Below, piece after piece: positions 3,637-62,236 of a DNA stretch of 64,000 nt. The position numbers and the translations under genes are program-made. The DNA is from Perkinsus chesapeaki (lineage: Eukaryota; Perkinsozoa; Perkinsida; Perkinsidae). The notes under the pieces are model-generated. The model made no database searches and was not told where the DNA came from. It saw nothing but the letters and a program-made list of their open reading frames with translations. The stretch is taken from NCBI GenBank assembly GCA_013115145.1, contig JAAPAO010000022.1, forward strand, positions 1-64,000. Reading direction: 5' to 3'. The first letter of the stretch is position 1. The number at the start of each line of letters is the position of its first letter.

Positions 3637-3641
3637 ACCAA

Positions 3642-6464: not shown

Positions 6465-6608
6465 GTTCCGCCTAACGCCCCTCAGAGCGTTCTACTGAAC
6501 CACAACATCCCATCTATCAAAGGACACGGCCTTCACTAACGAAGTGTCTGCAAGGAGAGTAAGGACTATCGAATGCCGTCTCTGTTACCGAAACAAACAC
6601 GAAATGGA

Positions 6609-6624
6609 TTTGCACGCATGCACA
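6609..6624. promoter_or_regulatory. TTTGCACGCATGCACA motif followed by CGCGCG
   Basis: TTTGCACGCATGCACA with CGCGCG a few bases downstream. A second composite of GCACGCATGC plus CGCGCG occurs at 34363-34386. Candidate regulatory element about 430 bp upstream of transporter 3. Confidence 0.4.
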
Positions 6625-11257: not shown

Positions 11258-11444
11258 TGTAAGTATCGAATAGGAACTGTCAGCTGTCAAATGTCGCGTT
11301 AAAACGTGCTAGCGTGCCTGAGAGCTACTGAGCTGCGATGGCCCACGTAGGGGACAACTAACACAAAACTTTCGAAGACAAAAAATATTGAATTTTACGG
11401 TAGCTGGTAATTGATGTGGCGCCCTTGAGCGCATACTAAGGTTA

Positions 11445-15380: not shown

Positions 15381-15560
15381 TATTGGATAAAACAGTTACC
15401 GACGAAACAGCTGCACTGGCTTATCTCTCGCTACTCACCCAACCTCGCAGGGCTTTGAATGAGCTCACTGAACAAAACACGCAATTGATATAGTGACAAT
15501 ATCCATCTGCAGCAAATCGACCAGACGAGTGGCCTGAAGACCTCCAGTCAGTCTGAGAAC

Positions 15561-17141: not shown

Positions 17142-17251
17142 TCCGCAGTTCAACGCTGCACTCCCAAACTTTAACGAATTGAGGCACAACAACAATACCA
17201 ACAGGAAACAGTACATGCAGTTGGTAAATTGGCGAATGGTACAAAGTATCT

Positions 17252-42581: not shown

Positions 42582-42821
42582 TTACCTACCTATGAGGAGG
42601 AGAGGTTCTGAATTGATAACACAACCTTAGGAGGACGTTGAAAAGCAGCAGTAAATGTTAACGAACAGGAACTCTTTTAAGAATGATTCTTCCCCTTTGT
42701 TGTGTGTAAGGAAGTGAATGAAGGTATCGATAAAGTAGAGGAGGGTCCTCTCATCCACTCTATTGACCGCCTTGGTCCTGCCGGGGAGATGGTTGAAGCA
42801 AATGACTAGCTATGATGCTCG

Positions 42822-45800
42822 CTATAGCTCGACTAACTTGAGGATGAGCTGTACGAGCAGTGATTCGAACCTGCGCCATCCACTGAATAATCCACCAGTA
42901 TAACCAAATGCACTATTCCCACCGTGTTGGGGCTTTTCGACAGGTCCGTGTCTATCCTTAACATGCAGGCCACTGCAGCATTTCTAGCATTTGGCCCCGA
43001 CTGCCCAGGCTGTGGCGTCCTCGTCAATAGTGTACCTACATGCCACTATCTCATACCGCTCCTTCCTCTAATCATCATCACCTGCAGCCGCTATCGTGTG
43101 AACGCGACCACCCGCGCCGTTCGCCATCGCATCCGGAAGGGCAATTAAATGGAAGTTGAAGGCGTTGCTTACATACCTGATAAGAAATCGATCACCAGGG
43201 CGCGCGCTTTTGTCATCGCCCACCCTTCGTATTGAGTGTATGGGACCTTGGCTTGACTGGTGACCATCGCCTCTCGTCCGCCAGTTTGCATCTCCTGCCA
43301 AAACTGAAGGAACTGCTGGGCGGAAATCGCCGCTGGAGCAATGAACTTGGTCAATACACCTGAGCCAGTGAGTTGAAGTGCGCACTCGGAAGAATAAAAG
43401 ATACTCACATGGTAGTGTCATTGGGAGCTGTTTAGCGCCTTGGCCGTTAACATCAAATGTTACGAGGAATCTTGGTGGTTGCAGGAATGGGCGTAGGCAC
43501 TCCACTTGAATGTATTCGACCTAAATCTGCCCGCTCAGCGCCGAAAAGACGACGTAGAAATTCACCCAACCTTCCGGAAGGGCGCTCCTAGTGAGATAAC
43601 TCCGCCATGAAAATCAGAGCGTTTCTCCCACCGTAACCTGGCCATGGCCGATCGAAATCAGCAAAGTAGCAGAAGACGCTAATACTGCTGCGAGTGACGG
43701 ATTTATGCTACTTTAGCGATCTTAGAAAAAGAGGGAAATTTGAAAAGATGAGGCAAACGCGGAGGAGGAAAGTAAAATGTCTAACACAACGCTTCCAAGC
43801 GAGCAGGCGTGAGTGGCGCTAAACGGATCACATAAACCAACAACTAACATGAAGACGGTTAGATAATATAACACCTGCACTGCAGTCGCTATCTACTAGA
43901 GCGGAGAGCGTGATCTCCATCGACCTACCGCTTGTTGGCCAGGTTCCAACGTATTGGGCTGCAACGCTGTGGATCTGACTCTAAATCCACCAGTGGTATC
44001 TGGCGGCACCTGAGAGAAGGAGATGGATGATAGGCGGAGCGAAGTTGATATACCTGAGTTTTGATGTTGCTAATAGTGACATCTTCTCCCTTGTTGATAA
44101 ATTGAAGAGCTAGCCGACCAATACCATGACCGTATCTACCAGCATCTCATACCGACTTTTCCACAAATAAGGCCTACTCTGCCTTCATATTAATATGTAG
44201 GGAGTTAGACTGGAAGAAGCTGCCTTGATTCGACACGCATAGCCTTTTCCAAAGCACCCCTGGCGGTACCGGCCCTAAAGCAACATATACACCATTAAGG
44301 AATGCTGCATCGCTACGGCTGTCGTCCTCATCATCGTAATCACTTTCATCCTCAGATTCATCAGAACTCACGCTACCTTCACTAGGTGGAGCTGGACCCG
44401 CCAGACCGGCAACTACTGGCGCTGGTGACGAGCCCGGAACCGCGTTCTGAAAAAGTTGCATACTTCTAGCACGGGCAAATTGTATAGTGAATCGGAAGGC
44501 TCCAGAACAAATAGTTGAGACAAGAACCCTACATATGAAGATGAGCTGGTAGAAATGGTAATTCTCACAGTACTGGAATATACCTGTGTGCACGCCTATA
44601 GTGCTCGAAACCCCCCAAAAAACTGATCGATGTTTTCATCCACGAACAGCAGCAAGCGGCGTATGGCGGCACAAGTGAGAAAGGCCACCGAGAGACATTC
44701 CAACTCTAATAATACAGCTACTCCCCAGTAACAGAGCTACTCATGAAGCAACATCTGTTTCAGTGACCATTTATTACCAAATCCTTGCCAGGTTTATTAT
44801 TGGACAATAGATTCTCATCCTGTTTAACATCTCCTTGCTGGTACACTCCTCCTTCAGTAGCAGCCGCCTATCCACCAAATACTCCCCATTTCTACACCTT
44901 CGCTCCGCCTACTACCTCCTCCAATTGCTTCCTAGTAGTAGCTCTCGTCTTACCTTGCGTCTTAATCCTTTGCTTTAACGGATTGTTTTCTTGAGCCTGC
45001 TTTTAAATGTCATTAAACTAATACCACACTTTTCTCAAACTCACTTCAATAGGATATACAGGCATCATAGCTAGTGTAGTCTCGACCATAGCATCTCCAC
45101 CAATCGTAAACAGCCGACTCAGCTCGCATGCACCTACGAATCTTGAAATCTTACCAAATCTTACATTTCCTCAATGTCCTACGTTGCTGCAATCCACAGT
45201 CGAGCGAATCCTGATAGTCCTCGAATATTAATAGAACCTCATCCTTAAGGTCTTTATCGTCCGGATTAGCATTTAACAGTTTAGCGTAACACATCATCAT
45301 TATACACTTAGTTTCAGCGCTAACTCGATTGATGTGCTTTTGCAACAACTACCAAATAGGCAACTTAATAAGAAAAGTTGAGGAAAAGTTGGTATTACAT
45401 TCACTATTTCTAGAGGCGTTGTCTTGCCCGCATTCACCAAGAAGTGGCCGAATTCTCCCATTAGATACGCTGCAAGCTTTATGAGAGTCTCATGAGGGTA
45501 CGGGGACGACTGGCCTGAAAATCCAAAATTCATTACCGAATTTTCTCGGGAAATTTTATAGGAAGCCATAGAGGTATCCAAAATACAAAAAAGAACTAAA
45601 AACGTCCATTTCGCATCCGACGTATCCGAAGCCTTGATAGATAGAAGTGTTCGGTGAGATAACTTCGGAAAATGTTTTCATAATCTACACCACTTCAGTA
45701 GGGCCACCAGATTGAATTAATCCTATCCAACTAGGTTGAGTTATAATCCCCTTCTCCCCTCCAATGCAACACTACAAGCTTCCATTGCTTTCTCCGCTGC

Positions 45801-48800
45801 ATACTGCTGTACTATATCCAATGTACCATCATCCGCATCTTTATTATCAAAGCCAGTAACAACTTGAACCTTTAATAAAAGATACGCATTGTCGCACTAT
45901 AAAGATTCCTTTCCTACCACTCTAAACCACACATCTTCACTCACAGATTCTGGACTGTACTCCAACATTTTGAAAACGACATCGACATACCAAGTCGGAT
46001 CAGGAGCGTTCACCTCTGCCAAAATGGCTATCTTTAGTATCTGAATCAGTATCAGTAAACCAAGATCAATGGAAGAATCTCTCGTGCTTCCATAGTAGTA
46101 GTTTCACTTCCCTCACCGGCAGTGCGGCTGCCCATGAGGTTGATATACAATGAAAGCTTTGTTGGACTGTGAGTGTTAAGAGAATATTCTACTTTTAAAC
46201 CGCATTACAATCACCAAATAATATATAAATAATAAATAGCATAAATAATAATAATAATCGATAATACAATATTGTGTAACACAATAACGGCAAATAGTCA
46301 TCATACTCAACGTGCTCCTAATACAGCTTTTATCAATCCGAGAGAGAGCTACGTCGAAGGAGATATACTATAATCCATTTCCAACATAAGCCTCTTTTAG
46401 TGTACAAGTCCGTTGAATCCAATGCCTCCCTCCCCCCATCCTTACCAGTTCCTCATGTATCCCAGCAGCTGCGCTTGGCTCACTCTCCCGGAATTTATCG
46501 ATACTTGATGGCGCTGGACGGGGACCAGCTAAAGGACAACACACAGTTGAAACAGTTGAGCAACTACAAGTACTGATAAGATACCACCCATTGGTCGCAC
46601 TATTACTGGTAATAATTCAATATTACTTATCACACCAGCGGCGCATCATGGGCTACAATTTGGACGCATTGAAAGAATGGAATACCACACCCTCCAGCCT
46701 CCCCTCTCTTCGCGTTAGAAGAAATGTCGGAGATTTATATCAAAGCTACGCATCAACCTAAGGATTCTCGTAAAGGGTCAGATTATGGTCCCAAGTGGGA
46801 CTGCCAGCCAAGCAGCTATCCCCAAAGTGAGGAAGTGCAGCTCCGCTAGGTAGTGAGATAATACGTGATCTAAGCCAGGACCGCTTATCTTGAAGGATAA
46901 TGAATTCCGAGCCATGTCAAAGTTGCGCAGATCCGTTAGCCACTTCGCTGCTTTCCCAGTCTATTACATGTACTAGCCAGAGCCTCTAGGAGCTCATCCA
47001 CAATAACTTGCCAGTTGCTTGGGTTACATATAGCGTAGAGAAGATTCAATGCCTGTCGCTGAATGGAGGGGTCGCTTTCGTGCAGCTGTTTTACTATAAC
47101 GGTCTTATACCTGACCATCGACCCCTAGACCCTTGGTTCGAATCCCATAACCATCACTACTTATCAAAAAGATTAAGTTGATGTACCCAATCTAGATGAG
47201 GACCACTCCCTTTACTTGTCATCGAGCTGCTCGCTGCCGTAGCCATCCTCGCCATAGCGTCCATTGCAAGATATCGGATATTAGCCTCCTTAGAGGATAT
47301 AAACCCACCTAAGACACACCACTGCACCCCTAACCCTACATCCCCCCTCCGCAGTAGTACTACTACCAAGCAGTTGGACGCAGGTGCGGCGATTATCAGC
47401 GTTGCATTCGTCGCCGAGATGGATTATGAGATTAGTTGCCTCAAACAACACTCCATTCTCAGCATTGGAACGATTCACTCTTTCCGCGTCGGCCCTACTG
47501 GATCCGCGGTTCTTTTTAAGCGGTCCTAAAATCCAGGCCGTGGGGTTCGAACCCGGGATCTATACTGAACTACCCTTCTTTGAAGACGCCTTAGGGATGG
47601 ATTGATCCTGGATTTCCATTACAGCCTTGCCTAGTATCTAAGCTTCAAGCGTGCTCATCACATTATCGAAAAGACTCTCTGTACTCTTCCCAAAACTTCG
47701 TTAAGTCTGTATATGATGGCATCATCGAAGCACGTCATAACCGGGAAGAACTGTAGGCATCGAAGAAGCTTCGCCTGTAGAGAAATAAAATGCCTTCAGC
47801 GTGGATCGAACCCGGGGCCTTTCGATTACTACCTGTAGCCACGGTGCTGGTACTCTATAGTAAACATAATGGCTCGGACACTCCCCAGTGACCATCGCCG
47901 AAAGCGCCACGACAATTCCAGGTATAGCTGGAGTCCACTCTACCGGTGGAGTCGTTCCTACACGTGACCTCAAGTCGACCTATTTCGTATCTTTCAACCT
48001 TCTACCTGCTTCCAAGATGCCACCCAACAGACCCGCCGCCGCCGTCAGCATCCCCACATCCTTCTCGTTGCTAAGTATGTCATTTATCTTATGGGACCAT
48101 TCCTCGGCCGACATAAGATCTTCAGGACCTGTCTCCCGGTATCTTACGCACTATAAAGATTTTCAATATTACTATCAACTTCCCTGTAAAACCGCAACAG
48201 GCACATACAAGCCTTCCTTTGTACATACAAAGTAGCTCCAGTGTTCTTATCGAGAAGCCTAACAGCAGCAGCAAGCACTAAGCACCGTCAATATTAGACT
48301 CAACTCCCCTTGAAAAAGAGCTAATACGCTTTGGAATGCTAGTGGGCGAATATACAGCAGAAACCTCCATATTTTCCCCGTGTACTCCGCCCCGGACATT
48401 TGATATTCCCAACTCGCTTCTAGATGGTGCGGCATACAGGCGATACCCCTCCTACTACTACCTTGCAACATCCCTGTATAGGTTTTCAGCGAACTCGGAC
48501 CCACCAGTGTTCGCGATACAATTGAGCGCCAGTGCCTGGACATGCTCATTGTTGCTGGCAATATCAGCCTTGCAGGCATTCACTATCAACCGCAGGACCT
48601 GAACGAATTACAGATGTACTGGCCGCGCGGATAAGGCAGAAGGCTTTCATCCCATAGATCCCCGGGTCGAATCCCTCTTATTACATCATTATTATCCTGT
48701 AGTAGTAAGGAGCAAGCTATATAACCTGCATTCTTTTCACTGTATTTAGTAGAGCTGATCAAACACCATGATAAAACCTATTAAACTACGTATCCCATTT

Positions 48801-49199
48801 CACCTGCATAAATTAACAGCTTGTATGTGACCAAAATCTATATCATAACCCAGCATATAAGCATAGATCAACTTCCATACATACTTCTTTTCATCGTACC
48901 TGATAACAGTAATCTTTATTACGACTATATATCATAATCAAGCCTTCACAGCGATTTTTATTGTTTAATGCCGTGTTGTCCACCACCACCACCAACAACT
49001 ATATAGTGTACTCCCCCTCCCTATAGTACCCTTTAAGCCCTTTAGGACTGGCAAACTTAGTACGAATCTTAGCTAGTTCCTTTTCAACTCTTTGATTCTC
49101 CGCCTCCTTATTAGGGCAGTTCCTAATGTATTGTTATTATTTATATTATTAATGCCACTATCACCTTATATCCGATACAAATACAGTGAGGCCCTTCAT
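42822..49199 (-). CDS. AP-2 complex subunit alpha (alpha-adaptin)
   Basis: Start [12 protein letters not shown] at 49199; exons 49199-49165, 49122-49030, 48899-48804, 48754-48685, then from 48598 and on to the stop at 42822-42824. Joined N-terminus: [58 protein letters not shown]; then [86 protein letters not shown] and [12 protein letters not shown]: the alpha-adaptin trunk. An acidic hinge (about 44200-44420) precedes the C-terminal appendage ([18 protein letters not shown]...), ending LLILKLVEL. Function: cargo selection and scaffold in clathrin endocytosis at the plasma membrane. Exons between 43.5 and 46.9 kb are only partly resolved. At least five introns contain tRNA T-arm-like sequences, listed separately. 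Confidence 0.93.
42849..42904 (-). other. tRNA-like intron A (AP-2 alpha, last intron, 56 nt)
   Basis: GT...AG intron fixed by the joined protein [12 protein letters not shown]. Contains ATTATTCAGTGGATGG (D-arm/A-box-like) followed at once by CGCAGGTTCGAATC (T-arm/B-box), with no anticodon arm, in sense orientation. The B-box on the forward strand is at 42862-42871. Confidence 0.8.
47111..47160 (-). other. tRNA-like intron B (AP-2 alpha, 50 nt, antisense)
   Basis: The intron joins NLFD(AA) to (G)YKTVIVKQL with correct phase. On the opposite strand it reads GGTTCGAATCCC (47135-47146), so the T-arm is antisense to the gene. Confidence 0.8.
47526..47573 (-). other. tRNA-like intron C (AP-2 alpha, 48 nt)
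   Basis: GTAGTTCAGTATAGATCC then GGGTTCGAACCC (47543-47554) and ...TTTTAG. Splicing joins ASSKKG to [16 protein letters not shown] in phase. The donor GT begins the D-arm-like GTAGTTCAGT. The GGGTTCGAACCC core is itself a perfect palindrome. Confidence 0.82.
47775..47832 (-). other. tRNA-like intron D (AP-2 alpha, 58 nt)
   Basis: GTAGTAATCG...CCCGGGTTCGATCC...TCTACAG; splicing joins VPAPWLQ to [10 protein letters not shown], matching alpha-adaptin exactly. T-arm in sense orientation, forward-strand 47803-47813. Confidence 0.85.
48599..48684 (-). other. tRNA-like intron E (AP-2 alpha, 86 nt, antisense, longest)
   Basis: Splicing joins LLLQDNND to [12 protein letters not shown]. On the forward strand it resembles a decayed tRNA 3' part: an anticodon-arm-like GGCTTTCATCCCATAG, then ATCCCCGGGTCGAATCCC (48657-48674). 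It shares TAGATCCC-GGGT-CGAA-CC with intron C. Confidence 0.75.
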
Positions 49200-49682
49200 G
49201 GACCCGCTGTTCCCTATAGGAAGCCCCGGCATATCTTAACGGTACAAAAAAACTACATAATATCTTAGCTCCATCCGGTGAAGATTCACGACAGCTTGAT
49301 CAGCAAATTGAGGATTAACCCGCCAAACAACAGATGAGGGAAGATGCCTTAACATGAATTCGGGCGCGCGCGCAAGATTTATAGCGGAGCGGAGCTGCGA
49401 TTTCCCTCTTCACTCGGGAAAATGACGTGTTCATTGATCGCGTGCTGCAAGCCTGGCTCGGCAAGTAGATCCGTATCGCATCGGTCATCAGCTTCAAATC
49501 ATCGGTTATCATCTAGAAGGATTACGTAAGAATCTGGAGTTGACCCTGAAGGATAAGACGAAGAAAAGATTTATTGAAAATGGCCTTTATTGTGAATAAT
49601 TACTTGGGACTTTTTGACACACTCAAATTCATCGTCATCTACATGGCCTTGCAGTGTTGTTCTGGAAGTTAGCCCGCTCCAA

Positions 49683-51200
49683 ATGGGGTCCGTCTATTCC
49701 TTCATCACTGGTGGGCCTCTAATAGCGGATATTGACTACACTGACACAACAACACCAACAACAACAACCAGCAGCAGCAACAACAGCAACAAAGATTCTA
49801 CCCCGAAAAACAACATCACTTTGCCAGCTGACTTCACAACGTGTAACACAATTGCCGTGATAGGGGGCGGTGCGATGGGATGTGCTGTCGCTTCATGGCT
49901 TGCTATATTGGGGAATACTGTAAGGATCCTGAAGCTGCTGGTTCTTACCCCCTTGTATATTAGGTATACTTGATAGAGTGCAGTACGCCACCCTCTGTTG
50001 TTGAAGAGAGGGTCAAGGCGAATCTACGACAAGCTTGGGGGATCTGTAGCGCGGTTTGGCCAGATCTTAACCTCACACGGGACGGCCGCCCCGGCACTAA
50101 AGATTCCTGTGAACCTGAAGCTGCCGCGATCGATGCCAGTTCCGATACTGAGGGTTCTGGCCGGAATATCGATGACATTTTTGGAACGCTCGAGGAGTGC
50201 AGCGGTAGAGTGCACTGGTGAGTATATGAAGATGAAGTATAACCTTTTCATGCTCGGTTTGACAGCTATAATGCGTCGAGTCTCGACAAAGTGGTAAAAG
50301 ACTGTAAAGTAGCCATCGAGGTGATTTCTGAAGATTTGAAAAAGAAGGCACAACTTTTTATGGAATTGAGGAAAGCCAGTAGTCTTATTATTCCATTCAA
50401 CCTCAATGGTATCTTTCCATCATCAACCTCAGATCCTAATATGTTATTGACTACCAATTCATTGTCACATTCTCCTTTGGATATATCGCGGAGTGCGGGC
50501 TTCCAGGAGGGTGATGTTATTGGCCTGCGATGGCTATGGCCCATTTGTTGGATACCTCTTGTTGAACTCACTAGTAAGCAAGATCACTTATAAGTAGTTT
50601 GTATTCATCATCATCCTCCTCCTCCTTTCTCAGCTCCTTGTATCGAAGCTCTGTCCTATAAGGCAAGCCTTGCATTTGTGAGATCCCAAGGTTTAATTGG
50701 CTACTCAACAATATCGTTACATCGCTGGCGTATGCCTATTCACGACACCGATGCATTATTCGACTTTTTCAAGTTTTCCGTGCAAAGAACAGCACGGTGG
50801 AAGCTGAAGCTTGGAGGTATCTTGCGCCCTTCTCACCGCTCGTCCAAGCGCCGCTTTTGCTGATGCTGCTCCTTCTTCTTCAGACATCCCAAACTCCTTT
50901 ATAGCTGCTACAGATTTGTGTGTGGCTTGTCTTTCGCAACCTCCGGAGATTATTAATGTTGGGGCATGTGCCCATCTGTGCTTGTGCGAGCAATGCGCAA
51001 TAGAACTATGGCGAAGGTACACCCCTATTAATCCATCTCCTAAGCTCACACCCGCCATCCCTTCTATTAGGTCATGCCCACGTATCTGTAATATAGGGCA
51101 CTCTGTTGGACCATCCTGCCCGCTATGCCGTAGGCCTCTTCAACCCGGTAAACTGCTGCTCGACGCTGAGCACTATAGGCTTGTTGCTCCTAACTCATGA
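49683..51200 (+). CDS. 3-hydroxyacyl-CoA dehydrogenase-like domain fused to a C-terminal RING finger
   Basis: Seven exons, 49683-49919, 49964-50217, 50266-50378, 50433-50573, 50634-50816, 50884-51016 and 51071-51200, all GT-AG, join in a single frame (1191 nt, 396 aa). A Thr/Ser/Asn-rich N-tail leads to a Rossmann NAD-binding motif TIAVIGGGAMGCAVASWLA, then KDCKVAIEVISEDLKKKAQL, NPNMLLTTNSLSHSPLDI and VIGLRWLWPICWIPLVELT, matching the HCDH N-terminal domain. The usual C-terminal helical domain is absent; instead a short linker leads to a RING-HC of the MUL1/IAP type: CVACLSQPP, CAHLCLCEQC, and after a short insert CPLCRRPLQP. This suggests a ubiquitin ligase with a dehydrogenase-derived sensor or scaffold; activity is unproven. 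An earlier in-frame ATG (49614) is possible. Confidence 0.85.
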
Positions 51201-51388
51201 GCACATCTTGTACCTTTCGTTATCATTGGCCTCAATGGCGGCTAATCCTTTTATCGTCTACTCCTTTTCGGGAGAAATGTCCCATTTTCTGTGCGAATCT
51301 TTTCAAGTGTTCAGCACCACTTTCAAGCCCACAATAGTCTTTACGTTCCCAGCCGGCTTCTCAGTGCTCTGAGTCTTGTGTTGATCAT

Positions 51389-53113
51389 ATGCGGGGCGCC
51401 AAAATGCCGATGAGCATTTCCACAATGCTGAATGAACTCGAGCCGCTCACCACCGGCAACAGTACTAGCAGCAGTCGCTCCAAGGGACAACAGTCATACC
51501 TACATGAGAGTATCTTTGAGGTTGATTCCCGGCCACCCCAGCGACACGAGAGCTCGACTTTTAACTGGAGCTCATGCGGTGGCCTCCTACTCATCACCAC
51601 ATCATTTTGGCTGCTTGCTTGGAATGAGACTGTTAACTCCCCTCTAGAAGCCTCACTGGTCTACGCCTTCCATCATGCTCGGAATGCCTCTTGTGATTTT
51701 GTGGATGAGGCCAACACCGGTGACCTAGTCTGGCTTAGCTGTCCTGTCATATCGATGCCGATGCTTGCCGAGCTCGCTCCCTCAGATATACAATCAGCTC
51801 TGAGCCAGGCCGGTCTGGAGGCTCGTGGTACCCAGCTGGAGTGGACGGTAGAGATGCTGCAGTGGACTGAAGAGGAAGTGTGCCGAGGATCAACAAGGAG
51901 GAGCGAATGCCTTTATACCTACTCCAAGGAGTTCACACACGTCGACATCGACCCAACTCACTTTTATTGTGCGACCAAGATACGCACCGGTTGCTCCACT
52001 CTCGCCCCATCTGAGCGTCCTCCAGTGCGCCTGGCGCAACTGGGCCGCCCCGAGACCCTTCATGGGATTGTGAAGGCTCCTGAGGACTCCGTGGTGATCG
52101 GTAACCCGAGGAACGGTTATGTGCTAAACTCCGCTTTGGCCGACCAGATCTCTGGTAAAGCTCAAGTTCAGCTGATCGATCGGGAGGGAGCAGCTGCGCT
52201 TCTCGGTGCCGATCGTGACCTCTATGTCGACTTCACACTCAACGAGTCATTTGCCCAGACATATGTGGCTTCGCCGAGGATTGGTGATCTCCGTTTGAGA
52301 GTGTCGGTATCATCGGCAGACTTCGTATCTTTGGTTGCCAAGCAAGAGCTCTCTGGCCACCTGGGTCCCTATTCCATACCCGGCCTCAGACGCTCTCTAC
52401 CTGTCGAATGGCTTATCGATGGCCGCCACGCAGATCTCCACTCTTTGTTGAAGCACCATAGTAAAGCGGACTTTGCCTGGTTCTGGCGCTTCATGGGCAT
52501 TTTGTTCCTCTGGCTGGGTGCTGCCCTTCTACTCTCCCCCCTTGGGGAGACAGAGCCCGCATGTATGGCCGTCCTGTGCGTGGCCTGTTTTGCCGGTGCT
52601 GTCCTATCAGCCCTCCTTGCCGCTGTTGGCATTGGTCTCTTCGCCTCTTTCCCTTTTGAACTTTTAGTAGCTACTCTCGGCGTCGTCGGTGCCGGTATCT
52701 CCTGGCGCGCTTATAAGGCCAGTTGGCTCGACCGTGCCCACTACTACCAATACTACTACGGCGGTCTCTATGATGATGCCTCCTCCCCTGTGGCCGGTGA
52801 AATGCCTCTCATCAGAGCAGCCGCCTCGGTGACCCAGGAGGACCCGTACTGGTTTGAGCGTCGCTTGGATAACAGATGTATCGAATCGAGCGATGATGAA
52901 GATGACGACGAATATCAAGAGACAGGTGAGACCATGGCATCTCTAACATCGCCGAATTTTTTGCAAAAAGGAATCAACCAAGGATTGCCCATTTTGGGAG
53001 TTACGCTTAGGTGTAATCAGTCCAAGACTAGTTTTGTTTCAGATGGTCTGTCCAAAGATACTAACAGTCGACCTTCGCGGTATCTTCCGCGCATCGACCC
53101 TCCCAGTGAGTAA
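51389..53113 (+). CDS. TMEM43 (LUMA)-like membrane protein
   Basis: One long open frame of 574 aa. A hydrophobic segment near residue 65 (GGLLLITTSFWLLAWNE), a large lumenal domain with TQLEWTVEMLQWTEEEVC, and three C-terminal membrane segments (FMGILFLWLGAALLLSPL; FAGAVLSALLAAVGIGLF; LLVATLGVVGAGISW) follow the TMEM43 plan, as does PRIGDLRLRVSVSSADF. Family knowledge: ER/inner nuclear envelope protein. An acidic Asp/Glu cluster (SSDDEDDDEYQE) follows the last membrane segment. A possible donor (GTGAGACC, about 52926) near that cluster may mean the last about 60 codons are partly intronic. The start may be at the first or second Met (MRGAK or MPMSI). Confidence 0.85.
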   Translation: MRGAKMPMSISTMLNELEPLTTGNSTSSSRSKGQQSYLHESIFEVDSRPPQRHESSTFNWSSCGGLLLITTSFWLLAWNETVNSPLEASLVYAFHHARNASCDFVDEANTGDLVWLSCPVISMPMLAELAPSDIQSALSQAGLEARGTQLEWTVEMLQWTEEEVCRGSTRRSECLYTYSKEFTHVDIDPTHFYCATKIRTGCSTLAPSERPPVRLAQLGRPETLHGIVKAPEDSVVIGNPRNGYVLNSALADQISGKAQVQLIDREGAAALLGADRDLYVDFTLNESFAQTYVASPRIGDLRLRVSVSSADFVSLVAKQELSGHLGPYSIPGLRRSLPVEWLIDGRHADLHSLLKHHSKADFAWFWRFMGILFLWLGAALLLSPLGETEPACMAVLCVACFAGAVLSALLAAVGIGLFASFPFELLVATLGVVGAGISWRAYKASWLDRAHYYQYYYGGLYDDASSPVAGEMPLIRAAASVTQEDPYWFERRLDNRCIESSDDEDDDEYQETGETMASLTSPNFLQKGINQGLPILGVTLRCNQSKTSFVSDGLSKDTNSRPSRYLPRIDPPSE

Positions 53114-53214
53114 TTTCTGGTAACATAATTTAGCCATGTAGAAGCCTTTCCACGGTACACTTGGCCATTGAGTTCCTTCAATACAAGAAACCCCCTCCGA
53201 AAGGATTACTGTTA

Positions 53215-54611
53215 ATGCTATCCACCACCGCATTCAGTCACACCATTGCTCGAAGGCTATTCGCCTCAGCAACATCAGGGGCGGCGGCGACGGCCATGGC
53301 CCCTCGTATAGTAGCACTCGACGCGGCTACGTTGAAGTTGCCCAGTGACGCTTGGAGGAGCCTCAGCGCCCTCGGTGACCTTTCTCTCTATGAGGACACG
53401 ACCACACCGGAACAGGCTATCGACAGAGCGAAGGTGAGCACATGCGTGCAACTTCTTCATACCACACTCCTCTCAAATCAGGATGCCGATATACTACTCA
53501 TCAACAAGGTTCCGCTGGGTCCCGATGTCCTCGGCCATCTTCCATCGCTGAAGATGATCAGTGTCATGGCAACAGGTCTCGTGGTCCACCCCGGAATATC
53601 GGTCTTACTGTGCTTTTGCTGCTGCCCTGCTAGGTTACGATAACATCGACATCCGTTCCTTGAAGTCCGGGCAGATAGTCTCCAACGTGCCAGATTACAG
53701 CACTAACTCGACGGCCCAGCAGACCGTGGCTCTCATATTAGAAATATGCAACAGTGTCGGTATGCATAATGCTGCAGTTCACGCTGGCGAGTGGTCCAAG
53801 GAGGGCCTCTTCTGGTACGTGAGGCCCTTCTTCTCCATATATTATATCACGGTCAGGTTCCGCAAGCACGAGATGCTCGAACTTGGCCCGGAGGTTACTA
53901 TCGGTATAGTGGGCCTGGGTACCATTGGCACAAGGTAGCTGCTGTCTCCCAGCGCCGCCGTTCATTCGAAGCTATCTGTGCTGCTGTTAGAGTCTACGAG
54001 CTGCTGCGTCCCTTCGGATGCCAGTTCCTGGCGTGGTCACCGGACACTAGGAAGGAGCTTCCTCAACTAGTTTATACCGATGATGTTGGTGAACTATTCC
54101 AGAGATCCAGTAAGAGCTATTTCAGAACAGGGCGTATCTTGCTGTGCATGCGTGCATAATATCAGACCTGGTTACACTTCACTGCAAGCTAACTCAACAG
54201 AACTACGGTTTCGTAAATGGTCCCCTCCTGCACCGAATGCAGCCTGGCTCAATCCTAGTCAACGCGGCAAGAGGCGCGCTAGTCAACGAACAAGACCTAG
54301 CCGATGCCCTCAAGTAACAGTACCACCAATAACGTCACTATTGTTTGTCAGTTGCGGTCACCTTGCAGCTGCAGCAGTTGATGTGGTTTCTCATGAGCCT
54401 ATAAATGACACTAACCCATTGCTTCAAGCCAAGAACTGCATTATAACCCCTCACATGGCGTGGTAGGTATATCCCCACCGCCGCTACCGTTCTAGAGGTA
54501 TTCTTGCTTAGGACCGCCCCTGAGGCTCGTCAACGCTGCCTGGCCATCGCCACCAGCAACGTAGAGGCCTTCCTGAGCGGCAATCCATCAAACGTTGTTG
54601 CCTCCGGTTGA
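53215..54611 (+). CDS. Hydroxypyruvate reductase / glycerate dehydrogenase (D-2-hydroxyacid dehydrogenase family)
   Basis: Eight exons, 53215-53433, 53482-53575, 53634-53814, 53857-53934, 53991-54109, 54166-54313, 54352-54462 and 54512-54611, join to 1050 nt (349 aa). N-terminal MLSTTAFSHTIARRLFASAT looks like a mitochondrial presequence, with a second Met (MAPRIVALDAAT) at the enzyme start. Signatures: VTIGIVGLGTIGTR (NAD loop), ILVNAARGALVNEQDL (catalytic Arg), AVDVVSHEP (Glu) and IITPHMAWTAPEARQR (His), as in glycerate dehydrogenases; it ends GNPSNVVASG. Converts hydroxypyruvate or glyoxylate to glycerate or glycolate. The intron at 54110-54165 contains a GCATGCGTGCA motif. Confidence 0.95.
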
Positions 54612-54745
54612 GGGGAACATTTCAAGTAAAATGTCGTGCAGACATCTGTGACCCTTACTAACTTTTTGTGTCTTATTTCTCATCTTTTCATCGAATTGTG
54701 TTGTCAATCTCCTCAAAGCTCCTCTCGTAGCTAATACTACTCACA

Positions 54746-56804
54746 ATGCCAGGGCAGCAGGCCACCGCCTCGACAGCAGCGCTGTTCCTGGCCTTTACCC
54801 TTATCGAACACATCCTCGGTAACTCTCTGAAGGGCTCCCTCAGTCAGGCTGTAAGCGTGTGGCGACCGGAGGGTAGCGCAGCGTTCTGTTGGCAGGCGAT
54901 GGGCAAAGAAACGCCCTCCGCAGCTGATGCTAGTCAAGGAACTTTTCATGAAACAGAGATGGCCCGTCTTATAGATATAGACAACACTCGTCCTATGAAG
55001 GTAGGTCGCTGGTTCGATCCCGGCATACAACATCCTTTTAGTTCCTGACAACTGAGAAGCTCCGTGATGGGTATAAGGGTCACACCCTATCAGAAGTCTC
55101 GCCAGGGTAGGTCACCTCCATACAGCAATAGTAACTTGCTCGACCAGGTCTCCGCCTACCAACCGTTTCGGTGACATGATAGTCCCCGACACTCTCCTAG
55201 AGGGCGCTAATCCAGCGTGGGAGGTCTGGCCACACCCTCCTGGACAGTCATCTGAGATACTGTACGACAGCAGTCACGTATTAAAATTAAAGTATTTATT
55301 TTCGATAGATATGAGTTTGATCACTCCGCCAAAGCGTGTGTTCGCTCTGTTATTATGGAAGCGATAAAGCATGTATCTGTTGCGGTAAGGAAGTCCCTGG
55401 TTCGATCCCCGGCTGAGGCATCTCCCCATCAGGCACCATGCATCACCTTTATTGATGCCGAACATCATGACCAACCTGTCGGAGCTCACACCCTTAAGAT
55501 CAAGGGTGAAGATTCTGGCTGTTACGCCTCCCTGGGATATTCCAACACCCACGAGAATGTGTTAAATCTCGGTAAGCGGACAGCAGCAGCATCCAGGCGC
55601 TGTTGCTGTGAATGATGCTTGGACAGGCCGTGGGTGCATGAATGTTGGCACAGCTATACACCTATTAATGCACGTTCTTGGTGTAGCTCATGAGAATCAG
55701 CGTCCAGATAGCGAAGCTTATATGGAGGTGAGTTCCCATTGTGGTGGTCGGCGGCGGCGGCCACTTGAACGAGACATCCCTGATTAGACCATTCCCAGCC
55801 ATATTGAAAATGGGGTCCTTCAAAACGAGGAAGCTATGAAGGTCAACTTCCAGTAAGAAGGCAGAGAAATGCGATCATCGACTGTTGGTCCTTAATTCAG
55901 AATTTTCCAAGGAACAGGAACAGAGTGGGAGAGGGCAGTTCGGGGTAAGTATGCGGCATGACCGCGCGCCGAGAAATGTCTCTGTAGGCATAGCTTACGA
56001 CGTCGCCAGCGTGACGCATGGAGGACCCTGCTACTATTCGGCTTCTCGCTTTGAGAGAGATGGCTGCTCGAAAACACTCGTCCCTCGGGCGGTAAGCTGT
56101 GAACGTCTATCTGAGTGAGGTGGTGTATTTCAGGACCTTGGTAGGACCGCATCAGAAGTAATGGGCAATAGAGCCTTCTTAACTGCGCATGATATTGCAT
56201 TACTTAGAATAATGTAAAAACCAGAGTTGCGGTTCAATTGATGATAAGCAGCATTCCCATCAGGTATGGATGTGGTGGACACTATCGCAGTGGAGAAGCA
56301 TACGTCGCTGCCGCCTCTAACACAGTGTATGATATATCTGGCAAAGCTCTCTTAGAGCCGGTGTCGGTAGGTGCTTTCGAGCAGCTTCTCAGTACATAAT
56401 TGCGCTCCTCTGTCAGGTATTACAGCAATGCTTATTTACTGACCAGGAAAGCTTCGCTGACTGGGGAGCTGAGGGAGACCTCGAGCCATTGCAAAGGTCG
56501 ACGGTCCCAGTAGAACAACACACCGAGACCACTGCGGCCCCCTCCAATGGCAACCTCCGAACAGGATACGAGACTATAATGATGGGCGTTCTTGTGGTCG
56601 TTGTCATCAGCCTGGTAAGAAAAAGTCGGTGTATCATACATTGATTTTAATTCACAGGTGGTATTTGCTGCCTATGTTACGAAGGATCGATGGTTCCCAA
56701 AAGTTGAGAAGACCAAGGAGAGCATAAAACGCATCACTCATCGATCACGGGAAGAACAGGATGAACCGCTAGTCTCCGAGGAGGACGATCGTTACGATGA
56801 ATAA
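54746..56804 (+). CDS. Astacin-like (M12A) type I membrane protein with altered active site
   Basis: Start MPGQQATASTAALFLAFT at 54746 (signal-peptide-like). Exons include 54746-55000, 55042-about 55107, a third ending about 55280, a fourth ending 55384, 55433-55571, 55627-55727, and later ones to TAA at 56802-56804. Astacin landmarks: SVIMEAIKHVSVAAPCITFI, SGCYASLGY, RGCMNVGTAI then HLLMHVLGVAHENQRPDSE, and AYDVASVTHGGPCYY. The zinc helix keeps three His, but the catalytic Glu of HExxH is Leu (55662-55664), and the Met-turn SxMHY reads SVTHG. A C-terminal membrane segment (IMMGVLVVVVISLVVFAAYV) and an acidic/basic tail follow. Probably a pseudoprotease at the cell surface. Two introns are tRNA-like. 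Confidence 0.85.
55001..55041 (+). other. tRNA-like intron F (astacin-like gene, 41 nt)
   Basis: GTAGGTCGCT then GGTTCGATCCC (55011-55021) and ...CTTTTAG. Splices ...NTRPMK to FLTTEKLRDGYKG. The B-box starts 10 nt after the donor; the donor GGTAG matches the end of a tRNA D-loop. Confidence 0.85.
55385..55432 (+). other. tRNA-like intron G (astacin-like gene, 48 nt)
   Basis: GTAAGGAAGTCCCT then GGTTCGATCCCC (55399-55410) and ...CCCATCAG. Splices AIKHVSVA to APCITFIDAEH, matching the astacin fold. Confidence 0.87.
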
Positions 56805-57759
56805 GCATGAAATGGCCTCATGGCATCTGATGTTACCAAACATTGCATGTGTTGATTTATACAGTATGACACCAACATGAATTATGCGCTACGTGAGAAG
56901 TACGAGCTGCTTATGAGCTAGGAGGCCCTGAGCTAAGGACGCCTCTAGACTAGCCGGCTTAACTCTTTTATTTTACGCTCGATGGCTCGAGACCCGGATG
57001 CGTGGTAGAAGCGCTGGTAGAAGCTCGATGGACCCCCCGCCGTGTCCATGACGAGGTTCGAATAAAAGGTCTGCTGCAGAGCGCCGACACAAATTAGCAA
57101 CCAGTCGAGGTTAATGGTGATAGGATGGCAGCAGTGCCTTTATTGGGTTCGTACTGTTACCATTTTGGTCCATGCGAGACAACGCGTATGTTGATAGTAC
57201 TACAAGTGGATGTTTTCACTGAAGGAAAATGTGTCCAATGGACATCCGATATTTTTTGCACAAAAGTCTGATTGACGGGAGAGTTGTTTTTCCCACTACG
57301 GATCGTACGTGACAAAAGTACCGAATAGTGCCGCACCCGATAGATATATTAAGGACGTCGAAGCGGAGGTCATCGCTTCTTGCGCGGATAAGACTAACCC
57401 AAATCAGATGATGAAGTGAGAGAAGATCTTTATTAATGTAATGTCGATGATTATACGTGTACCGTGCGTCATGTTACAATACTATAATCATCATATACGA
57501 CAAGTTAGTTAACGGTTGGATGTTGAGGTAGGAATGATAACCTGACGACGACGACACAATAGCAATAAAGATCAGTGATGCTTCATTTACCTCCAGTAAC
57601 TGCAGTAGTTCATTGCTCTTCATGGCATGCATATGTTAGACTCCTCATCGAGGACGCTACCATCCACTTCGGCATCCGGAGAGCAATCCACAAACACATT
57701 CTCTATCGAGAATAATCAAACGATAGCAACGCGGGCCGCTACTCACCAGCTTTAATGTT
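56805..57759. other. Spacer downstream of the astacin-like gene
   Basis: No supported gene. One T-arm-like GGTTCGAATA at about 57055-57064 lies outside any intron I can define. Confidence 0.4.
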
Positions 57760-57769
57760 TTGGTTCATT

Positions 57770-58600
57770 TTTTGCTTGTATGTGTAAATCTAAGGCATCA
57801 CCATCATTAGTAGTCAATCCCTCTTGGCTCACCTCTTCATCCAAAAGCTCATCAAATTTCCAGTTGCCAGTGCTCCCTCGTCGTCCTGTTTTATCATTAA
57901 TTCGGATGTAATCCCTAATAACGATTTCCAGTCAAACGAGCACACTCTGGGCCAGGGTCTCTGGCACAGCTGATGAAGGCAATGAAGGTTCAAAAATATA
58001 ATGTACAGTGTAGTTATCATCCATCAAATGACTAGTTGGTTTTTCCCCAAGCGACTTCCAAAAACTCTATCTTTGAAATTGCCATCCTGAGATTTGATAT
58101 CGAAATTTTTCTATTGAACTCTCTGACGGATATGCATCATGTCTCAGATGAGCCATGCCAGGGCTACTTGAATGATTGTGTGTTGGGAGGATCCAGCTGT
58201 CCCGAGGCCACGATGTCACCGAACACCCTGACATCAAAGACATAAGGACAGTTGCGGCAAATGTGTTACTGTCGGATATCACAACTTGGTATCCTGTCAC
58301 CAAAGATACTGTCGGGGTCGGTACTGGATTGAGCAAGAACCATAGACTGCCATTTCATAGACCACGCTGGAATGTGCTGACAAGATACTTTGCGCACTGT
58401 GAAGATTTCCCTATCCCTTACTTTATGCCTTGCATCCTCTGAATGCTCATCAGTGTCTTCATCATATTCCGATATAGGATACCTGAGCATCGCCTTAACC
58501 ATGAATGCCAAAGGAGGAGCTATCAACTACTGGTCATCAAACCGTGGAGGGGAGTCTAAGCTGCGCAATCGTTTGACCTGTGATAGAATGCAATGAGTGG
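57770..58600 (-). CDS. Unidentified minus-strand exons
   Basis: Exon-like pieces: one ending LDLHIQAKNEPKH before TAA near 57765 or, in another frame, SELMIKQDDEGALATGNL; and 58330-58590 with APPLAFMVKAMLRYPISE and EYDEDTDEHSEDARHK (acidic). Frames and joins are unresolved and no family is recognised. They may be the 3' end of the gene that includes the minisatellite intron. Confidence 0.3.
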
Positions 58601-59089
58601 CGGCCACCAGAAGCACCTTGCCGCCCGTGATTGTTATCCGTGCAGTATTCTTGCTGACTGTTGTTGATAGTAGCACACGGCGGCCCGATCCGACATCTTC
58701 GTGGGAGGCTGAGACACAGGAGACTACTGACGCTATTTACACAAACCTAGAGTTTATTCATTCCCGCGTGGGGATGATTCCACTCGTTATGAAACCCCTC
58801 TAAAAAATATTACAACCTATGATATCAGGCACTGTCATTACTACTACTTAGACCATCCAGAAATCACACTGGCAGCAAAATCGAAGGAGTTATAGAATGA
58901 TATGTTGACCTATTATTATAAGTTAATTATTTTTTCTAAAGAAGACTTCTTTGCGGTGTGGTCGAGAGGTAACCAGCTTACGTTTATCACAACCAACATC
59001 GCTGTGGTGGCCGCTCCCTGCTGGAGGTATTGGGGTTGAGAAAACCTTGGACACTTCATACTCACTCGGTAGGCTCTCTGTAGAGATAT

Positions 59090-59527
59090 TTAATTAACAA
59101 TGTGGACTGGGCTTACCAACTGCACGCTTAACGTCAAGATCCATTCCGGAGCCTTTTTGACCAGCAATAGGAGAAACTGAACAGGTGAAGATATACCACC
59201 ATTGCGAGGGGGCTCGATTGAGCATTGGAGCAAAACAGGGTAAGAATACTGTACAGAAATAGAGTAAGAATACTGTATAGAAATAGAGTAAGAATACTGT
59301 ACAGAAATAGAGTAAGAATACTGTATAGAAATAGAGTAAGAATACTGTACAGAAATAGGGTAAGAATACTGTACAGAAATAGAGTAAGAATACTGTACGG
59401 TCTCACCGTTATCTTCATTTCCGTCCATCATCTCAGCAATACTCTTCCTTCCTCTGGCCCACACTGGTGTCGGTGGATCCTCTACAGATGGGCTAGCATC
59501 TGGAAAGTAACCTGATAAGCATACCAT
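59090..59527 (-). CDS. Exons flanking a minisatellite-filled intron, gene unidentified
   Basis: The upstream exon (59407-about 59510) encodes DASPSVEDPPTPVWARGRKS and AEMMDGNEDN; the downstream exon (about 59117-59176) encodes SPIAGQKGSGMDLDVKRAV. A donor GTGAG at 59406 and an acceptor TTCAG at 59177 bracket a 230-nt intron largely made of 24-bp repeats. Splicing gives NVSPIAGQ in frame. No family recognised. Confidence 0.55.
   Translation of the reverse strand: MVCLSGYFPDASPSVEDPPTPVWARGRKSIAEMMDGNEDNGETVQYSYSISVQYSYPISVQYSYSISIQYSYSISVQYSYSISIQYSYSISVQYSYPVLLQCSIEPPRNGGISSPVQFLLLLVKKAPEWILTLSVQLVSPVHIVN
59240..59398. repeat. 24-bp minisatellite, six full copies and one partial
   Basis: Forward unit GTAAGAATACTGTA(C/T)AG plus AAATAG(A/G), in tandem; copies differ by one or two bases, with TACAG and TATAG versions alternating at first. 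On the gene's strand each unit contains a pyrimidine-rich run ending (A)CAG, that is, a potential 3' splice site. Confidence 0.95.
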
Positions 59528-60138
59528 ATCGACACTTCGTTTTCAACCATCTTGACAGAGTGAGTCCCAACGGAGACCAGCGACAACCATAGTGACCTCT
59601 CTTTCAAACAATTGTGAGGGAGTGGAGGGCGGGACGGAATCAATGAGACACTCAGACTCTCTGCAGTAACGAGCCTGAAACTCTTAGACCTCCAGTATGT
59701 TAGAGCTATTATCCCGTATAATCTATACATTTCACAATAGGCACGTACAAAAACAGACTCCTATTCCCAATGTGGCATGTGCCCAACTGACCTCGGTTCA
59801 TCTGCCGCTTGACCGATGCTGACATGGATGCCGTTGTGTTGGTACGAGTCATGTGATGAGGGGCCGCTGACAACTTCTTAGCCTTAACAACAACCAATAG
59901 ACTGCAGCCGCTATACCCAACTAACCTACTTCAAATTTGCTGGCCAAGTCCTTTACTCTGGATCTCTGTGTATCAGCCCCACCAATGGTCATCACAGCAG
60001 CAGCCGAGCACTGATAATAAAGACTATGCTATTGAAGTGGCAAGAAGGAGGACTTACCGATGATTGGTCATTAAACACTGAATGATTGCCGATAGACCTA
60101 ATAAATACGAAGCACTCCGCGTCTTTGCGCTGTCACCC

Positions 60139-60330
60139 TTACAGTAGTTTGTCCCCGGGTGATCTTGAAATTGGCCTGGACGCTGTAGCATTACCCATAG
60201 CCGATGGCCCCCCAGTAGCATGCCCTCTGGAGAGATCTTCCTCGCTCTCATCGTTCATGCTCGAACAGCAGAGAGAGTCACCGGGCACAGAGGGAGCTGG
60301 AAAAGAAGCTTCATGAGGGAGAATAGCCAA
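60139..60330 (-). CDS. Unidentified minus-strand exon
   Basis: Open frame with ASFPAPSVPGDSLCCSSM, NDESEEDLSRGHATGGPS and ASRPISRSPGDKLL: Ser/Pro/Asp-rich linker-like sequence. Same strand as the neighbouring exons at 59.1-59.5 and 61.4-61.9 kb; probably one gene, joins unresolved. Confidence 0.35.
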   Translation of the reverse strand: MAILPHEASFPAPSVPGDSLCCSSMNDESEEDLSRGHATGGPSAMGNATASRPISRSPGDKLL

Positions 60331-60843
60331 GTTGAGATGTCACGTGGTGGATTGAGCAACGGTGCTGTCATAACTGTTGGCTTTGTCGGTACTGCCACAC
60401 CACGGCTCTCCAACCATGACGGCACTTGATGGACTATATCATCCAGACTGAGGTGAGAGACACTCATGACTGGTCGAAAGTGCCGGCAAAACAAACTTGA
60501 TATTGAATATGTAATATACATTGTAGAGGATGTATTACAGTCAGAGCTGAAATTGTCGATATTTAATTCTCCACAGAAGGATAATAGCACTAATACTGCT
60601 ACACCGCGCTAGCATCCTTGATGATATTTCGGACATGGCCGTGTGAATGGTCCGAACGAAATCGATCTTGGCATGCTCCTCGAGTTTTACCGCCTCTTTA
60701 TAACTCACCAGCCATCGGCCTCTTTCATAGAGGACTTCAACTCGGACTGTAGTGCAGCTATACCAGCATCACCAGCGTCAGCTAGACAACCGAACAGAGC
60801 TGCTAGATCAACCTTCCTAACTGACTCCCGCCTGAGCTGACTG

Positions 60844-61086
60844 TTAAATGACATTTAATGTATGAGCCGACAAAGGCCTAATAACAGCACAAGTAAGAAT
60901 CTTCGGCGATGCCGCAATATGAAGTTTCATGACGAACTTTGGACGCCACGATGAAGCTTCCAACGCGTCAGTTACAAAAATGCCCCTCAACCTGTTGGAA
61001 GTCTGGCGGACTTCATCACCCGACTCTGCGAAGAGCCTCGGACTTCCGCGAAAATTGATCATGAATATTCTTCTTTCACCAACCAA
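60844..61086 (-). CDS. Unidentified minus-strand exon(s)
   Basis: Open frame containing RRIFMINFRGSPRLFAESGD and GIFVTDALEASSWRPKFV, ending HTLNVI. No family recognised. Mixed polarity suggests a folded domain. Confidence 0.35.
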   Translation of the reverse strand: MVGERRIFMINFRGSPRLFAESGDEVRQTSNRLRGIFVTDALEASSWRPKFVMKLHIAASPKILTCAVIRPLSAHTLNVI

Positions 61087-61355
61087 TGCAAGCGAGCAAA
61101 TTTCCGGAACTCTTCAATGAGAATTATGATGCTGTTGCAGCATCCACGCGCCTCGTAATCATCAGGTAACATTAACAACAAGTTCAAACTCTCGCAGAAA
61201 CCGGCTCTGCTAGAACACAATGATAAAAATGTAAGTTGCCATGGCGTCGTGTACTGCTATTCCTCTGGCAGCAAGAGGAGCAGCTCTGTACGGTATCGAT
61301 TGCGGTACACGGAAACTTGCGGAGTGACCACCTGTACAGTGAAATGTCCATCACT

Positions 61356-61897
61356 TTATGCTATATGCTCTACCATCCGCGGCATCAAGTCTGCTATTGA
61401 TGTGGTGTGGCGGCCAATAGTGAGGAGGAGGAAGTGGTGGTAGCCGACTGTGGAAAAGACGAGCTCGAATGCTTCACTGGGTGGATCGTCATGTCTCTCG
61501 GTCATCAAGAAGGAGTATCGATCCTGACGGGGCAACAAAGATTCGAACCTCCGACCTTACCAACTAGAGACGGCCGGCTCTCCCTCGCTACCATTCTTGC
61601 ATGATCCTGCCAGTCTATGCCCTCAGTCTTATCCACAATGCATTCTGTATTAACTGGATGTACAAATCTAGACACCCCACTCATCGCACTAAAGACGTCA
61701 ACATGAATAATGCATCGGTCATCCCCGAGCTGCTGCCCCCCACGAAGGGACCTCACACTCCCCCCCGACCGAAGTGAACCTGCGGCCTGGTCAGAATGAG
61801 CATATCGATACCCTTTACCGTTGAGATCATTTCCTTCCAAAACCGTCGGTAGAAATGATGACGAATTAAACCGCCCCAAAATCAACGGATAGGCCAC
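61356..61897 (-). CDS. Unidentified two-exon segment around a tRNA-like intron
   Basis: Exon 61565-61897 (MAYPLILGRFNSSSFLPTV... to VARESRPSL) joins in phase 0 to an exon from 61523 downward (DRYSFLMTERHDDPPSEAF). The first exon is open from the ATG at 61897, so that may be the gene start. No family recognised. Confidence 0.5.
61524..61564 (-). other. tRNA-like intron H (61.5 kb gene, 41 nt)
   Basis: GTTGGTAAGGTCGGA then GGTTCGAATC and ...CCCGTCAG. The first bases (with preceding TCTCTA) read TAGTTGGTAAGGTCGGAG: a D-loop joined directly to a variable loop/T-arm, as in a tRNA lacking its anticodon arm. Forward-strand B-box 61540-61549. Frame-preserving (SRPSL/DRYSF). Confidence 0.75.
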
Positions 61898-62170: not shown

Positions 62171-62236
62171 TGTGGTTCAGCGGTAGGACTCCATGGTAGA
62201 TTCGAACCCACGACCATTGGCATGACAGACCAACAC
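62171..62236 (-). other. tRNA-like sequence I, probable intron start
   Basis: On the minus strand a donor-like AAG|GTGTTGG (62236) is followed by GTGGGTTCGAATC (62199-62211 forward), a T-arm. On the plus strand the same stretch has TGTGGTTCAGCGGTAGG (62171-62187), a D-arm/A-box-like sequence. The acceptor is not certain. Confidence 0.5.

Follow-up and report, generated by a model that had tools for sequence, protein, structure and literature searches.

Short dispersed elements in the genome of Perkinsus chesapeaki probably behave as introners, repeats whose similar copies form whole introns in many unrelated genes, and they appear to be spliceable in either orientation; we put the probability of this reading at about 0.6. 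They came to light in a stretch of 64,000 nucleotides (positions 1 to 64,000 of contig JAAPAO010000022.1, assembly GCA_013115145.1), here called the window, in which an initial annotation had singled out eight short GT-AG introns built around the sequence GGTTCGA[AT][CT]C, a B box of the kind found in transfer RNA (tRNA) genes. That annotation had suggested a tRNA-derived, introner-like family and had expected far fewer such motifs by chance than it found.

The excess over chance is borne out across the whole genome. In 35.4 Mb of sequence (884 contigs), the motif occurs 2242 times, 1105 times on one strand and 1137 on the other, compared with 279 occurrences of the reversed pattern that served as the control. 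Under second-, third-, and fourth-order Markov models, the expected counts are 331, 188, and 202 for the motif and 461, 262, and 316 for the reversed control, which the third-order model fits best; by any of these measures the motif count is far above chance. The single variant GGTTCGATCC accounts for 841 occurrences versus 53 for its control. Allowing one mismatch raises the counts to 9852 for the motif and 6682 for the reversed pattern, which is a poor control at this level on account of base composition and mirror matches, and Markov models were used beside it. After correction for composition and mirror hits, we estimate that about 1300 one-mismatch copies are true, a figure that takes the share of motif types from the listed places. 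A count of just 107 was obtained for one common A-box pattern, largely as sets of identical tRNA-like strings. The amplified unit is the tRNA 3' end, without whole tRNA genes.

Locally, the motif can also be crowded. At least 13 GGTTCGATCC places fall within about 17 kb of contig C48 (19037-36311), forming a local cluster. Separately, on contigs C63 and C202 (42766-43686 of the latter), repeats of the sequence AGGTGTAGTGGTCGGCAC are spaced in multiples of 21 bases, probably as a minisatellite.

Element copies as predicted introns across the genome

Copies were studied at 100 listed places (contigs C1 to C20) and in the window, a sample of 86 copies outside tRNA genes and 10 matches within them. 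Splice-site scores, for donors and acceptors alike, are highest just outside the element (62 copies). At a summed score of at least 8, GT-AG introns were called at 42 of the 86 non-tRNA copies in both orientations taken together, where about 6 were expected; 28 copies gave sense calls and 14 gave antisense calls, versus nulls from displaced positions of 3.5 and 2.3. The lengths of these element introns range from 29 to 71 nt with a median of 49.5 nt, while the 389 introns called in a strict gene-finder run (355 on contig C1 and 34 in the window) have a median of 48 nt. Element introns are thus no longer than ordinary ones, which means that the element is the intron. Predicted excision also leaves the reading frame open in most cases. 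Of the 39 called introns of 36 to 75 nt (the other 3 of the 42 fall outside this range and were left out), 32 have an open frame of at least 60 nt on each side after removal. The corresponding numbers are 22.0 with the acceptor moved by 1 or 2 bases and 20.6 for displaced deletions, and 8 of the 39 are open when left unspliced.

Protein homology runs across the predicted junctions. Twelve of 30 spliced peptides, all outside AP-2, have a Pfam match that crosses the junction, and 9 of these 12 introns have a length that is not a multiple of three. The matches are to an ion channel (locus L048, antisense, E value of 3.3e-16), DUF726 (L120, 5.5e-21), astacin (window, 7.7e-4), TCP-1 (C1:11904-11950, antisense, 7.4e-9), PAP2_C (L099, 9.7e-16), a protein kinase (L178, 4.3e-16), RRM (L174, 3.4e-8), GCV_H (L170, 1.4e-17), adenylosuccinate synthetase (L156, 4e-38), Sof1 (L172, 2.7e-27), NAD kinase (L150, 2.3e-12), and uridine kinase (L040, 1.6e-5, spliced by eye). 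The peptides scanned were 20 of 36 and 9 of 27 from the spliced sets plus the one spliced by eye, and since some were chosen for a domain recognized by eye, 12 of 30 should not be taken as a rate.

A subfamily with a shared 17-nt core repeats the pattern among closely similar copies. Exact copies of the core AAAGGTCCCTGGTTCGA number 37, and 106 are found when up to one mismatch is allowed, against 1 control match. The set assembled for it held 40 loci, 33 of them exact and the other 7 with a single mismatch, and these contain 41 core matches; excluding L185, a tRNA-Tyr gene one base off the core, and L186, where the mismatch lies within the B box, leaves 39 copies, 33 of them exact. Introns were called at 25 of the 39 at a score of at least 8 (null, 3.0) and at 29 of the 39 at a score of at least 7 (null, 7.4). 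The 25 have a median length of 50 nt, and 19 are antisense, such as GTGAGATGTCGGGTGCCGGGATCGAACCAGGGACCTTTGGGTTGTTAG (L166) and GTAAGATGGTGGAGGGTGGATTCGAACCAGGGACCTTTGGGTTTTTATTAG (L158), and 6 are sense, such as GTAATCGAAAGGTCCCTGGTTCGAATCCCGGAGAGGGTATTTTAG (L180). Read in the orientation of the element, conservation in the subfamily extends from position 32-33 to 62 and resumes at G70, C72, A73, and the T run, and the CT at position 32-33 is the reverse complement of an AG acceptor.

The element, about 36 to 45 bp long, reads as an AGGTC variable loop, the B box GGTTCGAWYCC, seven variable bases, GRCA, and a T run, like the 3' half of a tRNA gene but with no tRNA folding. We propose that a copy inserted into an exon would be removed in the cell as a complete intron, mostly of 41 to 60 nt. 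In the sense orientation, GTAAG or GTAGG ahead of the element would act as the donor and the T run with the AG behind it as the acceptor, as in GTAAGCGAAAGGTCCCTGGTTCGAATCTATGCAAGTACATTTTTAG. In the antisense orientation, the T-run end would become the donor (GTAAGATGYC-like, GTAARATGYC), and the AAAGG side would become a CCTTTCG pyrimidine stretch with an AG acceptor (CCTTTCGATTGTCAG-like). With splice signals in both directions, an insertion could be spliced out, and so tolerated, whichever way it lands, a simple reason for such insertions to survive.

Motif introns in the window

The eight motif introns of the window, the gene that holds most of them, and one further exact motif are as follows.

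42763..49232, minus strand: AP-2 complex subunit alpha gene, holding five of the eight motif introns
42849..42904, minus strand: AP-2 alpha intron, 56 nt, sense B box GGTTCGAATC at 42862-42871
47111..47160, minus strand: AP-2 alpha intron, 50 nt, antisense B box
47526..47573, minus strand: AP-2 alpha intron, 48 nt, palindromic GGTTCGAACC, 3' end ATTTTAG
47775..47832, minus strand: AP-2 alpha intron, 58 nt, sense GTAGTAATCGAAAGGCCCCGGGTTCGATCC..GGCATTTT..CAG, with a homology break and continuity
48599..48684, minus strand: AP-2 alpha intron, 86 nt, antisense, one-mismatch B box GGGTCGAATC
55001..55041, plus strand: astacin-gene intron, 41 nt, sense GTAGGTCGCTGGTTCGATCCCGGCATACAACATCCTTTTAG, called in both loose gene-finder runs
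55385..55432, plus strand: astacin-gene intron, 48 nt, sense, with the astacin match crossing the junction
61524..61564, minus strand: probable intron, 41 nt (alternative 61524-61560, from GTAAGG), sense, from splice scores and a loose gene model
62199..62208, minus strand: exact motif in the same gene region as the 61.5-kb intron

All eight segments have GT..AG ends and carry the motif or a one-base variant, and the statement that most are sense and two antisense is correct, the matches at 47135 and 48664 being antisense and the other six introns sense. The gene finder applied to the window was a simple one, trained on long reading frames and supplied with no motif. In two loose local runs it returned 6 and then 5 of the 8 reported introns exactly; the strict run, on the window and contig C1, called no gene at the three places where genes with motif introns lie.

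The AP-2 alpha protein is 72% identical to that of P. olseni and 68% identical to that of P. marinus, and in its spliced form it matches AP-2 alpha structures with an E value of 5e-71. The initial annotation had fixed these introns by frame and homology, and the P. olseni and P. marinus proteins do match both flanks of all five, but at 42849-42904 (ends GTTATA..GTACAG) the second protein match begins 22 bases within the intron, leaving that boundary only approximate; this intron was missed in both loose runs. At 47111-47160, residue 420 of the P. olseni protein is found at 47160 and then again at 47112, and the intron was called exactly in the first loose run and absorbed into a 105-nt intron in the second, looser one. 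The remaining three were called in both runs. Across 47526-47573 the spliced protein aligns without a gap to that of P. olseni, and the P. marinus record is without these residues. Around 48599-48684, where the tRNA-like body is by eye longer than in other copies, the DNA exceeds the P. olseni protein by 45 codons, which equals two called introns of 49 and 86 nt.

In the astacin gene, only splicing of 55001-55041 gives a 60-nt open frame on either side. The intron at 55385-55432 was called exactly in the loose runs, but since its length is divisible by three and the unspliced sequence stays open, homology is its evidence: the astacin match across it has an E value of 7.7e-4, which for this short piece falls under the curated cutoff, and the whole gene model matches at 3.8e-14. 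The probable intron near 61.5 kb, in or beside an Alg9-like mannosyltransferase gene (Glyco_transf_22 lies in an upstream exon block of the model), had been regarded as fixed by its frame. It fails the 60-nt open-frame test and is predicted from splice scores and the loose model, and the second loose run called 61524-61560 in its place.

Exact motifs stand at nine places in the window (33294, 42862, 47135, 47544, 47803, 55011, 55399, 61540, and 62199), and with at most one mismatch there are 27 matches, compared with a mean of 10.96 and a maximum of 23 in shuffled sequence. The first 41 kb are not free of the motif, as had been thought, but the one match there, at 33294 on the minus strand, looks like chance because it lies in a stretch that by eye is coding-like and does not belong to the 72 copies, described below, whose flanks are tRNA-like.

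Other features of the window can be noted beside these introns. At 62173-62230, a B-box copy stands beside a reverse-complemented A-box-like string, which by eye resembles head-to-head tRNA-like pieces. The encoded proteins have their closest matches in Perkinsus; a transmembrane protein encoded in the window is 58% identical to its P. olseni counterpart and 62% identical to that of P. marinus. Seven similar long reading frames of 509 to 578 amino acids, by eye membrane transporters, stand in a row on the minus strand at 1792-17216, in a genome whose other genes have many introns.

Resemblance to tRNA and competing explanations

The likeness to tRNA extends past the B box. A leave-one-out score for tRNA 3'-end flanks, with the B box itself excluded, tops 99% of random positions in 72 of the 86 copies, whose signature is the variable loop, B box, C72-A73, and T run; the likeness to a tRNA 3' end is therefore genuine and reaches well past the original motif. 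In 63 copies, the conserved block spans tRNA position 42-44 or so to 77, with A44 G G T C48, the B box, C62, G70 G C72 A73, and TTTT as the conserved letters, little conservation beyond it, and no conserved body or 3' tail past the T run. An A-box-like string (at most one mismatch) lies 25 to 50 bases upstream of 17 of the 86 copies, compared with 5 and 6 in other 25-base bins, so that the paired A and B boxes of a tRNA-derived short interspersed element (SINE) are present in a minority only, and no hidden acceptor-stem partner was found upstream of the elements. Judged by their letters, the elements are tRNA-like in linear sequence only, and a tRNA origin is probable.

Four tRNA-Tyr-like genes (L129, L130, L131, and L185) have a short intron after the anticodon, and ARAGORN assigns L185 to Tyr and the other three to Thr or His. 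Locus L192 (C92:17820-18020) has a paired T stem, and its 66-72 stretch is exactly complementary to an upstream GTCATCG, so that either a D-armless mini-tRNA or an inverted repeat could form there; by eye the locus also reads as an antisense intron.

A number of results weigh against the interpretation of these elements as tRNA-like introners. At score 8, no intron was called at 44 of the 86 copies, which means that members of the family also lie outside introns. A coding-based test failed to separate motif matches from random positions, and the 105-nt flanks of called element introns have a mean coding score of -0.08, nearer to the -1.66 of uncalled DNA than to the 5.49 of called exons, a score to which we give little weight because the coding model is weak outside strongly biased genes. 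The rest of the 30 spliced peptides gave no Pfam match or only weak or one-sided ones. Enrichment over shuffled introns, proposed as a check at the outset, gave a divided answer. The motif with at most one mismatch is found in 5 of the 389 strict-run introns, all on C1 and two of them long (171 and 266 nt) and doubtful, which is no clear excess over the mean of 3.2 from a crude shuffle, but a whole-element score of at least 15 bits was reached by 3 of 316 called introns of 40 to 120 nt and by none after shuffling. A few strong introns aside, the remaining ordinary introns show no shift toward decayed copies. Element introns make up a minority of all introns; genes such as AP-2 are missed by the strict run, whose parameters had been tightened before use since a first run merged everything into two genes.

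Other difficulties concern descent and movement. Pairing at T-stem positions 49-51/63-65 is no better than chance among the 72 good copies (107 of 216, compared with 109 of 111 in the real tRNAs here), and no RNA fold was found in the element core, from which it follows that the elements are not T-arms. A covariance-model check for tRNA identity, which the initial annotation had recommended, found no Rfam match, RF00005 included, in 20 element loci at E values up to 10. No source was found among 51 distinct tRNA 3' ends, a set that samples only some isotypes; the copies fit these ends no better than column-shuffled sequences do, their mutual likeness is slightly above that of shuffled sequences, and two tRNA-Val genes are by eye without the subfamily core. 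What holds of the suggested tRNA-derived family is thus its genome-wide, element-sized B-box introns, and what does not is their identity as T-arms or as copies of the tRNAs compared. In the subfamily, positions 63-69 differ in all 39 copies (a mean of 4.8 of 7 differences per pair, where random bases would give 5.25), and such variability between an identical core (33 of 39) and an anchored GRCA is not predicted by simple copying. Neither target-site duplications nor terminal, inverted, or direct repeats, the first two being marks of introner transposition, were found at the copies, although neither target-site duplications nor terminal repeats are known to be required of all introners. An empty site was not found either: when 30 of 40 spliced junctions were searched for in this genome, all 38 matches were to their own loci.

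The copies outside called introns would be explained if a tRNA-derived, SINE-like repeat had been inserted into introns that already existed, since introns are a natural refuge, and some introns are indeed longer, such as the 86-nt one at 48599. We consider this colonization unlikely. A 36-bp insert would lengthen an existing intron much, from 48 nt to more than 80, where the medians seen are 49.5 and 50 nt, and splice sites are packed right outside the element, although the search windows undercount long element-bearing introns. Between the two routes left open by the initial annotation, the element-sized introns favor gain by insertion over colonization of older introns.

Another improbable alternative is that selection keeps the motif as a functional site, either a TFIIIC-binding B box on chromatin or a splicing-related signal, with introns serving as permissive noncoding DNA. 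Conservation is far stronger in the B box and core than in the neighboring bases, and occurrence in both orientations with no RNA structure is what a DNA-level site would show, but the 17-nt core with its anchored GRCA-T run and the whole-intron copies are left unaccounted for. Reverse splicing, in which spliced intron RNA reinserts and is copied back, would suit an element about coextensive with its intron and the lack of target-site duplications, but it preserves orientation; finding one core intronic both ways (6 sense and 19 antisense) argues against it, as do the copies outside called introns, and we think it very improbable. Real tRNA genes, tRNA pseudogenes, or chance, to which the 10 real tRNAs in the sample and the 17 copies with A-box-like strings might point, are rejected as the cause of the excess by ARAGORN (none of the 86 copies is a tRNA), Rfam, and the control and Markov counts (chance would supply some 190 to 330 of 2242), with the unpaired T stems and the scarce A-box pattern agreeing.

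If the elements are introners, they would have spread by insertion, perhaps through reverse transcription, and their introns would represent gain rather than loss; reverse transcriptase (RVT_1) matches number 56 in the genome at E values of 0.001 or less. A more specific and tentative possibility is that tRNA-type RNA polymerase III transcripts, cleaved within either the anticodon loop or the variable loop, yield pieces that are a continuing source of new spliceosomal introns in this lineage. The T-run terminator would then double as the pyrimidine tract before the AG, and the reverse complement would open with a donor-like GTAARATG.

Relation to known introns and repeats

How new introns arise has long been asked, and for mass gain the best-supported source is introners. 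A family with a tRNA-3'-end-like body would be a new type of intron source, and its repeated core would make intron gain countable and datable through the DNA of other Perkinsus species. We did not find such a family described in the literature searched, which is weak evidence of novelty: the open-license literature gave no description of tRNA-derived or B-box introners, nothing on intron gain from a tRNA-derived SINE appeared by title and opening of the abstract among the matches listed, and those listed for Perkinsus introns, tRNA genes, and genome held no description of these elements. The terms tRNA, SINE, and Perkinsus are absent from the main text of a survey of introners (PMC9860276, in the portion available), and the accessible part of PMC7789003 contains no tRNA-like introner.

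Compared with tRNA genes and the RF00005 family, the elements share a linear signature at positions 44-62 and 72-77 but lack T-stem pairing, a covariance match (20 loci), and a conserved 5' half. With tRNA-derived SINEs they have in common a tRNA-type B box, dispersed copies, and a genome containing reverse transcriptases, but the A box is mostly missing, there is no body and no tail, and conservation ends at the T run. Introns of P. marinus are reported in part of PMC3101222 to be GT/AG and 39 to 1622 bp long, mostly under 100. In Amoebophrya, a parasitic dinoflagellate and distant relative, noncanonical introns offer a second case of repeated introns in a myzozoan parasite; as far as the sources available describe them, their splice sites are unusual and they contain inverted as well as direct repeats, whereas the Perkinsus element introns are GT-AG.

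The closest likeness is to the introners of Micromonas, Aureococcus, fungi, and Amoebophrya, as surveyed in PMC9860276. The elements described here differ from known introners in having a tRNA-3'-end-like body, a shared core of only 17 to 30 nt, and no inverted or direct repeats that we could find. Introner copies reach almost to both splice sites in the parts of PMC3488318 and PMC7789003 that describe them, and in P. chesapeaki the element is likewise nearly coextensive with its intron, with many similar intronic copies in unrelated genes; in both cases, similar repeats form whole introns.

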